Source: Anaeromassilibacillus sp. An250
GTDB taxonomy: Bacteria > Bacillota > Clostridia > Oscillospirales > Acutalibacteraceae
Reading direction: 5' to 3'
Assembly (NCBI RefSeq): GCF_002159845.1
Contig: NZ_NFJK01000009.1
Location: 1-64,000, forward strand
Length of the DNA: 64,000 bases
Made by a program: the position numbers and the translations under genes. Position 1 is the first letter of the stretch. Each line of letters starts with the position of its first letter. The notes under the pieces were generated by a model that searched no databases, was not told where the DNA came from, and saw only the letters and a program-made list of their open reading frames with translations. This document shows, piece after piece, positions 93 through 8,187 of the stretch.

Positions 93-533
93 ATGAAGCG
101 GCTGACAGAACGAAATAAAAATGGAACTGCTATGGCAGCTTGTTGCGGCGAAAACTGTAAATACAATTTTTGTTGTGAAAATGGTGGATTTGCCGAGTGT
201 GGCGATATGGATGATATTATTGACCGCCTCGCCGCCATCGAGGACATTCTGGGGGATGAGTACGATCTGGACGAGCTGAGGGAAATGGTTCAGGTCAAGC
301 GGAAGGGGCGATGTATAGTGCTGCCGTGCAAGAAGGGTGATACTGTGTGGCGTATCGTGCATGATGCAGCACCGCACATCACAAAAGACCGATGCACTGA
401 TATCAAGTATGAAAATAGAGACATATGGGTGCACTTAATCGGAGATAGAGTAATGGGCGGTTGGAATTTTGGCAAGCTATTATTTCTCACCCGCGAAGAG
501 GCCGAGGACGCACTACGGAGGGAGCAGGATTGA
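93..533 (+). CDS. Conserved phage hypothetical protein
   Basis: A 146-residue protein starting at ATG 93, with AGGAGG six bases upstream inside the end of the previous gene. It has a Cys-rich N-terminal stretch (CCGENCKYNFCC, residues about 17-28), an acidic helical middle, and a C-terminal part with V-L-P-C-K-K-G-D-T-V-W. Proteins of this layout are frequent in the accessory region of Clostridia prophages; I know of no assigned function. Its stop overlaps the TTG start of the next gene, so the two are probably translationally coupled. Confidence 0.75.
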   Translation: MKRLTERNKNGTAMAACCGENCKYNFCCENGGFAECGDMDDIIDRLAAIEDILGDEYDLDELREMVQVKRKGRCIVLPCKKGDTVWRIVHDAAPHITKDRCTDIKYENRDIWVHLIGDRVMGGWNFGKLLFLTREEAEDALRREQD

Positions 534-2167: not shown

Positions 2168-2347
2168 ATGGAAGAAAGGATAATGAAATTATATCCATGT
2201 AAAACATGCCCACAAAGTGATACATGCAATCAAAAAACATGTACTGCATGGAGATCATGGTTTTTGATAACTTGGAAATGGATAACTAGGATATATAAAA
2301 AGGGGGAAAGAAAAAGTGACAAGTCAAGACAAGAAGGCTTATCTTGA
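2168..2347 (+). CDS. Small Cys-rich phage protein
   Basis: A 59-residue ORF, ATG 2168 preceded by GGGAGGATAAA. It has the spacing C-K-T-C-P-Q-S-D-T-C then T-C-T-A-W-R-S-W, a pattern found in very short putative zinc-binding proteins of Clostridia prophages, followed by a hydrophobic aromatic segment (W-F-L-I-T-W-K-W-I). It overlaps the next gene by 32 bases. Small size makes the call less certain, but start signal, Cys spacing and tight packing all support it. Confidence 0.6.
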   Translation: MEERIMKLYPCKTCPQSDTCNQKTCTAWRSWFLITWKWITRIYKKGERKSDKSRQEGLS

Positions 2348-2729
2348 ACGTTACAGAGAAGCAGATCAAGAGATCGACCGCTTGTGCGAAGAGTTATCAC
2401 GATGGAGAGCGAGGGGGACAAAAATCGCTCCTAGTTTGTCCTCGGCGTCAGCGGAAGGCTATAAAGATGAAGATTTGGATGAATCTCCTGTAGAAAAGAT
2501 TATCTCCTTAGAAAGAGAAATAAATTCAACTATCGACAGGGCAATAGAAATCAAAAAGCAAGTGGAAGATACAATTAAGACTGTCCCAAATGGAACTTTA
2601 CGGGATATATTAATTAGGAGGTACATACTTGGAGAAACGTGGGAACAAATTTCAATTCATATGAATTATGGGTATCGTTGGATTTTACGATTACACGGAA
2701 AAGCTTTGAAGTTGGTAGAAGTGAAATAG
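2316..2729 (+). CDS. Late transcription regulator, sigma-70 region 4-like (DUF1492/ArpU type)
   Basis: A 137-residue protein from GTG 2316 with AGGGGGAAAG upstream. The N-terminal two-thirds is a charged coiled-coil-like helix (R-Y-R-E-A-D-Q-E-I-D-R-L-C). The C-terminal 45 residues (L-R-D-I-L-I-R-R-Y-I-L-G-E-T-W-E-Q-I-S-I-H-M) match the helix-turn-helix of sigma-70 region 4, as in phage DUF1492/RinA/ArpU-type activators of late genes. Position just before the terminase section fits a switch for late transcription. It may act on the leader elements described below, but that is inference. Confidence 0.75.
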   Translation: MTSQDKKAYLERYREADQEIDRLCEELSRWRARGTKIAPSLSSASAEGYKDEDLDESPVEKIISLEREINSTIDRAIEIKKQVEDTIKTVPNGTLRDILIRRYILGETWEQISIHMNYGYRWILRLHGKALKLVEVK

Positions 2730-2734
2730 ACCAT

Positions 2735-2763
2735 AGAAAGCCACTATGAAACTGTGGTATAAT
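2735..2763 (+). promoter_or_regulatory. Extended -10 promoter for the structured RNA region
   Basis: TATAAT at 2758-2763 is preceded by TGG, an extended -10 element. The -35 position (2735-2740) is a poor match, which extended -10 promoters tolerate. No ORF with a ribosome site follows for 500 bases, so the likely product is the structured RNA and the tRNA-like element downstream. Confidence 0.5.
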
Positions 2764-2769
2764 TAAGAC

Positions 2770-3105
2770 AAGAAAATAAACGGATGATAGACGATTTACT
2801 TTTGGCTCCTTTCATATTTTTCTCCTTGGTCCATGCCGTGCCGGGGGGCAGACCGGCGCGGCAGACATGCGGCAAAGAGTGCAACGCCGGTGCAACTCCG
2901 GCAGGCCGCACCACTTTTGTACCACCTGAAAAAACAGGGCCGTAGGTGGTGGGAATCCAACGGCTGATAAACCCGGACGTCAAGAGAGGCATTTTTGAGC
3001 GACAAGTCAGAACCGGGGAAAAAACTCTGGCGACCAGGAAAGACTGGTGTCGCTATGCAGAGTGCGGCTTAGAAATACTGCGCTATCCGGCCCAGCGCCG
3101 GAATA
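2770..3105 (+). ncRNA. Putative large structured non-coding RNA
   Basis: About 335 bases without a credible ORF, more GC-rich than the flanking genes, with a chain of stems visible by eye. They are: 10 bp at 2835-2844/2853-2862; a two-part stem 2868-2873/2905-2910 enclosing 2886-2890/2898-2902; 7 bp at 2921-2927/2944-2950; 5 bp 2972-2976/3013-3017; 3025-3029/3058-3062 enclosing 3030-3034/3049-3053; and 3087-3091/3097-3101. A promoter lies upstream and a tRNA-like fold directly downstream. Phages of Firmicutes are known to carry large ornate RNAs (GOLLD, ROOL) next to tRNAs; whether this belongs to either cannot be told by reading. Confidence 0.55.
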
Positions 3106-3106
3106 T

Positions 3107-3175
3107 GGCGTTTTAGCTCAGTCGGTAGAGCGTGCGGAGAACCGCAAGACGTTGGTTTGACCCCAACAAACGCCA
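3107..3175 (+). tRNA. tRNA-like element with shortened anticodon arm
   Basis: Acceptor stem GGCGTTT (3107-3113) pairs with AAACGCC (3168-3174), discriminator A 3175. The D arm is GCTC/GAGC with loop AGTCGGTA. The T arm is GTTGG/CCAAC with loop TTTGACC (T replaces the usual C56). The anticodon arm is TGCGG (3133-3137) and CCGCA (3142-3146) closing a loop of only four bases, AGAA, so no normal anticodon can be presented. All other arms are intact and perfectly paired. It is either a decayed tRNA or a tRNA-shaped RNA with another job. No encoded CCA. Confidence 0.6.
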
Positions 3176-3252
3176 TCTGCCTTTTCTTTTTCATAAACAC
3201 TTCCTTTCTTATTCACGGAAAACCGCCTGAGGAATGGCTTCATCTTATGGGG

Positions 3253-3270
3253 CTGCCCCAGGCAGTTTTT
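3253..3270 (+). terminator. Rho-independent terminator after the tRNA-like element
   Basis: CTGCC (3253-3257), loop CCA, GGCAG (3261-3265), followed directly by five T. It would end a transcript containing the structured RNA and the tRNA-like element. Confidence 0.55.
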
Positions 3271-3287
3271 ATACAAGGAGATTCACT

Positions 3288-3452
3288 ATGAGAGATAACA
3301 ATGCACTCAAAGATTTTATTAATTCGGTAGGGGCGCTCGCAGAAGTAGCGAAGATATTAAACGATTCTTTAAAGAGACAAGGGTTTAATGATCGAGAATC
3401 GTTGTATCTAACAAGCGAATTTTTGAAATCCACTTTTGGGGAGAGAAAGTAA
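3288..3452 (+). CDS. Small phage hypothetical protein
   Basis: A 54-residue protein. ATG 3288 with AAGGAGATTCACT upstream is chosen over an earlier ATG at 3234, which lies inside the terminator-like hairpin and lacks a ribosome site. The sequence is a helical, leucine-rich peptide (L-A-E-V-A-K-I-L-N-D-S-L-K-R-Q-G-F-N). No known family. It is the first gene after the structured RNA region. Confidence 0.55.
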   Translation: MRDNNALKDFINSVGALAEVAKILNDSLKRQGFNDRESLYLTSEFLKSTFGERK

Positions 3453-3538
3453 AAAATAATATAGGGGACTATATTTGCAATATAATTAAGGGCGAAGGTA
3501 TAACGATGCAATCGCCTAAACGTTTGAGAGAATGAAAG

Positions 3539-3805
3539 GTGACAACTTTGAACAAGAATGATACGACTATGGAGCAAGAAAATCTAGATGTTGAAAACCT
3601 CCAAAAGCAGCTTGAAGTTGTCCGGGCACTGTGCCGGTCAAAGGAATTAGAGATCGCAGACCTGAATGCAAAGGTTGCCCTCTACAAAGAAAAACTCCGA
3701 AACGCACAAATGGAAGCATCCTCCCGAAGCATGGAGAAAGAATCCGTCTACAAATACTGCATCGAACAACTATGCAAGGCGCTTGAAAGAAGGTGTTACG
3801 ACTGA
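3539..3805 (+). CDS. Coiled-coil phage protein
   Basis: An 88-residue protein beginning at GTG 3539 (ATG 3569 is an alternative). Residues 14-75 are a strong heptad-type coiled coil (L-Q-K-Q-L-E-V-V-R-A-L, then E-L-E-I-A-D-L-N-A-K-V). It overlaps the start of the putative small terminase by 13 bases, so it is probably translated with it. Function unknown; coiled-coil proteins next to terS are common in these phages. Confidence 0.65.
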   Translation: MTTLNKNDTTMEQENLDVENLQKQLEVVRALCRSKELEIADLNAKVALYKEKLRNAQMEASSRSMEKESVYKYCIEQLCKALERRCYD

Positions 3806-4359
3806 ATAAGAAAGAACTGGTTGAGCAGGGAGAGAAAGTAGTCAAGACCAAGATGAAACCCCGTGGCGGGAACTCTCCTGTGATCGGGGATAATGGGGTA
3901 CATACTCAGCCGGGAGATAATGCTAAGTATGCTGGAGTGCTTGCGACTATCCTTCGATGGGGGGATGTTGATAAGTCAGATGTTAAAGCCCTGGAAGATA
4001 GATTCTGGCAATTCGTCAACTATTGTTCGGAGCATGATGTCAGAGTAACAAATCAAGTAACATACCTTGCCCTTGGATTGAATAAAGATGAAGTATATGA
4101 TTGGGAAAATGGGCGTTCACGCAGCTCCGCACACTCCGAATTCATTAAAAAAGTTAAGAAATTTTGTGCCGCTTACCGTGAAATGTTAGGAGCCGACGGT
4201 AAACTAAACCCAGTCACTCTGGTCTGGTGGCAAAAGAACTATGACGGCCTTGTGGACAAGTCCGAGGTGGTGCTTACTCCCAACAACCCGCTAGGGACTA
4301 TTGCCGACCAAAAGCAGCTTGAAGAGCGGATCGCCGGGTCTGTTGTGGTGGAGGAGTGA
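3793..4359 (+). CDS. Putative terminase small subunit / DNA-packaging protein
   Basis: A 188-residue protein, GTG 3793. It follows the late regulator section and precedes the large terminase, which is where terS belongs. A central helical region (V-T-N-Q-V-T-Y-L-A-L-G-L then V-Y-D-W-E-N-G) looks like helix-turn-helix DNA binding, and the C-terminus has the V-L-T-P-N-N-P-L-G ending that I associate with this phage protein class. It would bind the packaging start site and recruit the large terminase. Repeats of CGACTAT lie in and just after it. Unlike most phages, about 4.6 kb of other genes separate it from terL. Confidence 0.55.
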   Translation: MLRLNKKELVEQGEKVVKTKMKPRGGNSPVIGDNGVHTQPGDNAKYAGVLATILRWGDVDKSDVKALEDRFWQFVNYCSEHDVRVTNQVTYLALGLNKDEVYDWENGRSRSSAHSEFIKKVKKFCAAYREMLGADGKLNPVTLVWWQKNYDGLVDKSEVVLTPNNPLGTIADQKQLEERIAGSVVVEE

Positions 4360-7410: not shown

Positions 7411-7425
7411 CGAGGGGTGAAAGAT

Positions 7426-8187
7426 ATGATGGAGTTCAAAAATGCCATTGGGTATATTCGGGTAAGCACGGAGGCTCAGGCGGCGGATGATAAATATGGC
7501 ATTGAGGCGCAGAAGGAAAAGATATTGGCCTATGCGAATGACAATGGGTATAACGTTGTTAAGTGGTTTTGCGATGAAGAAAGCGGAACGAGTGACGAGA
7601 GGCCGGAGCTAAACAAAATACTGTATGACGAGGACATTTCTAATCCTCCGTTTGAGGCCGTGATTGCGTTCAAGAGTGACCGGGTGGCGAGAGACACCAA
7701 ACTGTATTTCTACTATCTGTATGTCCTTGAAAAGCGTAACATTAAGTTGCTGAGTACGCAAGAGGTATTCCCAGAAGGAGATTTTGCAAATATCTACCGT
7801 GCATTGATGTTGTTTGTGGCAGAGCAGGAACGAAAGAATATTGCGCTCCGAACGGGGAACGGCAGGAAGATTAAGGCGGCTGCTGGCGGATATAGTGGTG
7901 GTCGTACTGCCTATGGGTACAAGGTTGACAATGGGCGGCTTGTTATCAACGAAGAGGAGCGGCCCATTGTGGAGTTTGTGTTTGCGGAACATAAGAAGGG
8001 AACCCCTATGCTGACGATTGCAGATAAGCTGAATGACCTTGGCTATCGGACGCGAAAAGGAACGAAGTTTCAGAACACAAGTGTCCGCAGCATTATAAAG
8101 AATGAGCCGCTTTACCGGGGAATGTATAAGTACGGAGACATGAATTGGGTAAAGGGCGTACACGAGCCTATTTTGAAGGACTCCTAA
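7426..8187 (+). CDS. Short serine recombinase
   Basis: A 253-residue protein from ATG 7426 (ATG 7429 equally possible), with GAGGGGTG upstream. The N-terminal resolvase domain has Y-I-R-V-S-T-E with catalytic Ser14, then F-K-S-D-R-V-A-R-D near residue 85. Residues about 155-245 match the start of the Recombinase domain (G-G-R-T-A-Y-G-Y, then Y-R-G-M-Y-K-Y-G). It stops where large serine recombinases (usually 450 or more residues) continue into zinc-ribbon and coiled-coil parts. It lies between small and large terminase rather than at a phage end, so it may act on local DNA rather than being the integrase. Own promoter. Confidence 0.85.
   Translation: MMEFKNAIGYIRVSTEAQAADDKYGIEAQKEKILAYANDNGYNVVKWFCDEESGTSDERPELNKILYDEDISNPPFEAVIAFKSDRVARDTKLYFYYLYVLEKRNIKLLSTQEVFPEGDFANIYRALMLFVAEQERKNIALRTGNGRKIKAAAGGYSGGRTAYGYKVDNGRLVINEEERPIVEFVFAEHKKGTPMLTIADKLNDLGYRTRKGTKFQNTSVRSIIKNEPLYRGMYKYGDMNWVKGVHEPILKDS

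Follow-up and report, generated by a model that had tools for sequence, protein, structure and literature searches.

A 46-nt mini-tRNA, made of an acceptor arm and a T-arm with a short linker between them, lies in a prophage of Anaeromassilibacillus sp. An250. It occurs again between late genes of unrelated phages and, in some Clostridia, ahead of a zinc-finger gene. Its structure is well supported, it cannot read codons, and it is possibly a cutting or recognition site for the cellular tRNA machinery. We tentatively propose that phages and Clostridia share an undescribed class of tRNA mimics incapable of decoding, whose forms extend from a cloverleaf with a shortened anticodon arm down to an acceptor and T-arm alone, that these mimics serve as RNase P punctuation between late phage genes and before the zinc-finger gene, and that a host leader element was taken up and miniaturised by phages; this reading, taken as a whole, we hold to be possible, well short of an even chance.

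A structured non-coding stretch in the prophage

The window, by which we mean the whole 64,000-nucleotide stretch of DNA analysed, contains a GC-rich, structured stretch without coding at 2758-3275, between the late regulator and small terminase genes (Table 1). Just three close copies were found, two of them in the source genome: copy A is that of the window, copy B lies in a second prophage of the same genome and copy C (L048) in an uncultured Clostridia MAG.

Table 1. Features of the structured stretch and its flanking genes, in window coordinates
Feature	Position	Strand	Evidence or remark
Late transcriptional regulator gene	2316..2729	+	phrog_36 match; upstream of structured stretch
Promoter-like site, extended -10 (TG before TATAAT)	2734..2763	+	10/12; begins right behind late-regulator gene
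Unpaired leader CTCCTTTCATA-TTTTTCTCCTTGG, anti-Shine-Dalgarno-like	2806..2828	+	kept in copies A, B and C
P1 hairpin	2829..2866	+	11 consecutive pairs, 2834-2844 with 2853-2863
A-2 U-1, with the predicted RNase P cut behind 2868	2867..2868	+	AU in 21/30 chosen phage members vs 9.5% background
Mini-tRNA: acceptor arm and T-arm, short linker between	2869..2913	+	model R2, 54.0 bits (window copy in training set); alignment
Conserved 3′ module, terminal hairpin 3086-3091 with 3097-3102	3051..3102	+	96% to copy B
A-2 U-1 ahead of tRNA-like end	3105..3106	+	sequence
tRNA-like element without anticodon	3107..3175	+	RF00005, 56.2 bits; four stems paired
Terminator-like hairpin and T-run	3248..3270	+	ahead of next gene
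Small terminase gene	3793..4359	+	phrog_606 match; downstream of structured stretch

The earlier note had described a region differing in composition from its neighbours, lacking a credible ORF, rich in stems and ending in a tRNA-like fold, and this structured non-coding observation is real. GC content is 0.57 over 2800-2999, against 0.34 (2600-2799) and 0.35 (3300-3499) outside; only short ORFs occur, the longest plus-strand frame of copy B ending early in copy C at a stop codon; many separate stems form in the regional fold, among them P1, which gains three additional pairs (2829-2831 with 2864-2866) in a 94-nt fold; and the tRNA-like end is recognised by Rfam with all four stems paired (Table 1). 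The promoter and terminator that it had also named were both located, but the scan of both strands returned two sites of each kind, where shuffled sequences give 1.0 and 0.6 respectively. A similar TGTGATATAGT is seen by eye in the promoter region of copy C. The energy of folding is by itself weak evidence (plus strand, z -1.87, with 5/100 shuffles equally good; minus strand, z -2.55, better than plus); support for structure comes from relatives, namely the copies and the covariation of the 46-nt core.

The leader at 2800-2830, CTCCTTTCAT(AAT)ATTTTTCTCC, is kept in the three copies, and its complement reads as ribosome sites, a Shine-Dalgarno sequence plus ATG; no conserved peptide from that complement was seen in the three copies. 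We take the leader to resemble the 3′ end of 16S rRNA.

The mini-tRNA of the window

The acceptor of the mini-tRNA pairs 2869-2875 with 2903-2909, the outer five of seven pairs being formed and the two inner ones mismatched, and the T-arm pairs 2886-2890 with 2898-2902 around the loop UGCAACU (2891-2897), which carries G55. The D and anticodon arms of a tRNA are absent from 2868-2913; a linker of about 10 nt containing AGTGCA stands there instead. A73 is found at 2910 and CCA at 2911-2913. For copy B, RNAfold favours an alternative pairing of the T-arm.

There was no match to RF00005 at 2868-2913 at E up to 10, and no Rfam 15 family reached its gathering score over the mini-tRNA in scans of loci other than the chromosomal cloverleaf forms. 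Below threshold, RF04354 aligned to the opposite strand (E 0.0068 in L086, 0.26 in the window) and RF00233 (Tymo_tRNA-like), far under threshold, to two members (E 0.71 and 1.2). The L4 T-loop of the cobalamin riboswitch is similar in sequence to that of the mini-tRNA, but the riboswitch gave no match at E up to 10 and the remainder of its core was not seen.

Occurrence and covariation in phages

One weak match lay ahead of a ParA-like gene (L033, at the genome place of L046), and phage record MT835532.1 holds a relative of it (93.8%, covering 77% of the query). The window, the ParA-context copy and MT835532.1 have in common one stem enclosing a T-loop hairpin, and pattern scans of viral contigs found the same piece in unrelated phages. 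The register is that of tRNA: 12 nt separate the T-loop from the acceptor end (5 + 7, as in tRNA), after which comes A in most cases and CCA in some, with the linker of about 10 nt where tRNA has its D and anticodon arms. Conservation of the linker AGTRTA and the loop UGCAACU was largely imposed by the search pattern.

The pattern gave 69 hits, 48 of which (non-redundant, with enough flank) were used for an unselected test: 22/48 pair 6/6 in the fixed register, against 1.26 predicted from swapping halves between loci. In a chosen set of 32 rows, both partners had changed in 142 cells (47.4 when shuffled), and 89.1% of cells are paired, against 36-48% with the partner slid; because rows were selected by their pairing in this set and in those of 30 and 31 rows below, the pairing figures of these sets have an upward bias. 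The membership of L072 and L123 is uncertain. Model R2 returned 39 matches in the 50 loci given, mostly its training loci. In genomes of the order it matched 6/295 at E up to 0.01, and in genomes of the class 3/391 at E up to 0.001, the source genome being included in both; one match in each was judged false, L134 since it is without a T-loop and L144 since it lies inside a gene by eye, as does L053. A new R2 match, L143, has a different linker and again stands behind a gene matching the capsid query. A relaxed T-loop scan produced 20 stretches, 13 of them known already; most of the remaining seven are ordinary tRNAs or chance finds.

In the 30 chosen phage members, U-1 occurs in 27, A-2 in 22 and both in 21, on an AT background of 9.5%; +1 is G or C in 28 and A73 is present in 20. 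CCA is not conserved (C74 in 16, C75 in 12, A76 in 18). Folding of the 38 upstream bases gave z below -1.5 for 26 of 31 members, and in 25 of these 31 the last upstream pair ends 2-7 nt ahead of the acceptor, often with a T-run after it, so that T at -1 is in part expected in some phage copies.

Several copies show features of their own. At about 3370-3420 of L136 the viral-contig mini form, by eye, has the ordinary T-loop TTCAAAT and a linker of about 16 nt, and at about 420-450 (minus) of L083 a 12-bp hairpin, wobbles allowed, closes a TGCAACT loop without a clear acceptor arm. The ParA-context copy (L046, 3590-3730, minus) has the 8-mer TGTCGTTC twice, and one strand behind the mini-tRNA can pair with either occurrence, a possible switch; the downstream TGTCGTTC pairing is preserved in L055 through a compensatory change.

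Gene context in phages

Ten upstream and ten downstream proteins were scanned. Those upstream gave four matches to a major head protein and two to a minor head or head morphogenesis protein, and those downstream one match to a scaffold, one to a small terminase, one to a DNA-binding protein and three to families of unknown function, with four unmatched. An ORF starts within 20 nt downstream of the mini-tRNA in 11/21 other loci examined; the rest of the window's stretch is therefore absent there. The mini-tRNA is an accessory element in prophages, being found in only 1/14 that have a related capsid gene; the four phage records checked for capsid synteny had none, and another neighbour, used as query against phage proteins, gave no match.

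The chromosomal version and the full-size fold

One genome match (L131) has a SigH-like sigma gene on one side and a zinc-finger gene (PF13451; TIGR04272) on the other, the latter found in 99/118 relatives. Sixteen of 79 relatives matched at E up to 0.01, all in one genus (48 genomes counted); two further relative searches gave 6/80 and 1/76. Upstream regions of the zinc-finger gene were fetched through the protein, regardless of any prior RNA match: 105 places were listed and 102 taken (three partial or extra ones left out), and after setting aside three where no start was found and two with an odd start, 97 regions were counted. Acceptor and T-arm occur in 48/97, where 20 mononucleotide shuffles average 8.3 and never exceed 14; 16 of the 97 regions come from genomes with an earlier R2 match, and 15 of these are among the 48. 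The 48 comprise 31 minis, 16 long forms and one between; among the long forms at least L205 is really a mini whose register differs, and L257 is apparently a chance find.

For the cloverleaf, 20 rows were picked by D-arm pattern, which imposes the conservation of that arm, and L234 and L262 were dropped by eye. The remaining 18 long forms can be aligned on a cloverleaf whose D-arm and T-arm flank a shortened anticodon arm; they have 35 double-change cells against 15.5 in shuffles (0/500 as high) and an acceptor paired in 71% of cells. ARAGORN called no tRNA in any of the 97 regions. The minimum-energy fold of one long form, L253, is not a cloverleaf (z 0.18), so the case for the cloverleaf rests on covariation. 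Genera differ in what the equivalent chromosomal spot holds, a fuller tRNA-like fold or a mini, and from this we infer that the mini is a reduced tRNA mimic.

The element at 3107-3175 is of the same kind as the long chromosomal forms. It is nearest to tRNA-Asn(GUU) of relatives, but a four-nucleotide loop, AGAA, replaces CTGTTAA, so that the 7-nt loop with the anticodon is missing; the acceptor stem differs in sequence from that of tRNA-Asn(GUU) yet stays fully paired. This combination suggests that it has been kept as a structure without decoding. CCA is absent after position 73, the element is preceded by a hairpin and AU like the mini-tRNA, and ARAGORN called no tRNA in the window.

Extent of the conserved unit

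The earlier note had proposed a single large RNA of a new class, which the comparison does not support: the widely conserved unit is the 46-nt mini-tRNA near the 5′ side, and the remainder occurs in three copies only. Covariation, on which that proposal had been staked, is found across phages for the 46-nt core, but the whole stretch is represented by three close copies; the middle and the 3′ module are common to these alone, and the copies are too alike for a covariation test. Copy B matches the window in two blocks (92% and 96%), with a middle region not conserved between A and B, and copies B and C differ at 2/296 bases. By eye, copy B sits behind a regulator-like gene and ahead of terminase-like genes, a seemingly equivalent place, and the adjacent regulator and small-terminase-like genes of B and C differ despite the near-identical RNA stretch. 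The full tRNA-like end is missing from B and C, two of the three copies.

The absence of a known large-RNA family, also part of the earlier claim, stands: whether at gathering or at relaxed thresholds, tRNA is the one credible family that Rfam returns for the window, and the Rfam covariance models of GOLLD and ROOL gave no match there. A phage BLAST with the window element gave no match either. A 16-mer of the 3′ module was found in 17 stretches of viral contigs, all but two of them (viral records of the source genome) chance by eye. A pseudoknot pairing the loop of P1 with the strand that follows the mini-tRNA was rejected because this loop has only 3 nt in phage E.

A proposed role in RNA processing

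Structure, covariation and position together suggest that RNase P, and perhaps RNase Z, cuts at the mini-tRNA, separating and stabilising transcripts, a proposal to which we give slightly less than an even chance. The transcript between the late regulator and terminase genes would then carry two decoding-incompetent tRNA mimics, 2868-2913 and 3107-3175. RNase P would recognise the stacked acceptor and T-arm and cleave behind U-1, the RNA upstream of the cut retaining a protective 3′ hairpin and that downstream gaining resistance to 5′ decay from the compact fold at its start; RNase Z is a possible trimming enzyme for copies without CCA. Two cuts in the prophage transcript would release 2869-3106 as a stable RNA of about 240 nt.

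According to a review (PMC11143913), RNase P cleaves at the canonical site in model hairpins that consist of an acceptor, a T-stem and a T-loop, and the mini-tRNA has the acceptor and T-stem over 12 nt with a T-loop at the level of secondary structure, stacking of the arms being presumed. The register, T-loop, U-1 and A73 of the phage copies are consistent with such cutting. Against it stand the lack of CCA conservation (no CCA was seen among the chromosomal minis listed), the identity of -1 in the chromosomal minis (U in 14/35, C in another 14/35) and the lack of C56 in the T-loop of 12/18 fuller forms. An upstream hairpin is found by eye in few of the chromosomal copies read, the T-loop has G55, the inner acceptor pairs of the window copy are mismatched, and the occurrence in 1/14 prophages with a related capsid gene also counts against it. 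The ORF starts within 20 nt in 11/21 loci fit translation control as well.

That last observation bears on an alternative we consider unlikely, in which the mimic in an mRNA leader is an operator bound by a host tRNA-binding protein (on the chromosome, perhaps the zinc-finger product) that regulates translation, phages having borrowed the operator. E. coli thrS autoregulates, which provides a precedent; a constant position before one gene family (PF13451, TIGR04272) and nearness to ribosome sites in 11/21 phage loci agree with this. Yet the phage copies precede several unrelated genes, the window, B, D and E copies lie more than 100 nt from a start codon, and conservation of A-2 U-1 would be left unexplained. 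A conserved linker and loop in a leader position could belong to a small riboswitch or sensor that binds a ligand and controls the next gene; that conservation was largely imposed by the search pattern, the next genes have no evident pathway in common and other genera have fuller tRNA-like folds at the orthologous site of the chromosome, and we regard this as highly improbable.

An uncut 5′ or intercistronic stabiliser, in which hairpin and compact tRNA-like fold block exonucleases, would account for the compact fold and for the upstream hairpin in most of the 31 phage copies, but has no need of the 12-nt register, the T-loop or the AU ahead of the acceptor, and seems to us quite improbable. 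Nor do we favour, rating it very doubtful, the whole of 2758-3275 as one large structured RNA like GOLLD or ROOL: two modules are kept in three copies with terminator-like ends (those of B and C by eye) and a tRNA-like end is present, whereas the window is without an Rfam large-RNA match, the middle differs between A and B, and the similarity of the 3′ module to copies D and E is weak, 33/1000 shuffles being as good for D.

Relation to known RNAs

Minimal model substrates of RNase P such as AT1 have the same two stacked arms and T-loop, with a cut expected 5′ of the acceptor (PMC11143913), but they are laboratory designs with a 3′ RCCA contact, whereas the mini-tRNA is natural, with a linker of about 10 nt and no conserved CCA. 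Non-tRNA substrates include the phage C4 antisense RNA, T4 gene 32 mRNA, riboswitch structures and plant-virus tRNA-like ends; the part of PMC11143913 at hand mentions no recurring acceptor and T-arm element between phage late genes. The Bacillus cereus pseudo-tRNA tRNAOther is also a tRNA-like gene without translation function, but flanks a genomic island (the part of PMC3399842 at hand, compared here by description only). GOLLD and ROOL are likewise phage-encoded structured RNAs, often near tRNAs, but larger than the stretch in the window, which has no Rfam match to them (PMC12286853, from the portion at hand). None of the open-access titles and abstract beginnings among the matches listed describes the mini-tRNA; it may have been included earlier, without a name, among the thousands of candidate structured RNAs of PMC8040213, judging from the portion of that source at hand.

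If cutting by RNase P is correct, the minimal substrates of the test tube occur in nature and RNase P regularly shapes phage and bacterial mRNAs. The mini-tRNA would then provide a testable sequence signature that may account for the tRNA-like pieces close to the late genes of phages, and its covariance model could be used for annotation.

Other features of the two prophages

In the window, a serine-recombinase-like ORF, recognised by eye at 7417-8187 between the small and large terminase genes, is perhaps an inserted mobile gene. The second prophage (L005, 5472-5535) contains a GP20-b RNA (RF03003, 49 bits). A spacer of a CRISPR array in the source genome (L006, about 1135-1168; G000:C4:70134-70167; repeats by eye) is 94% identical to the 5′ block, which suggests that relatives of these phages have probably been met before.
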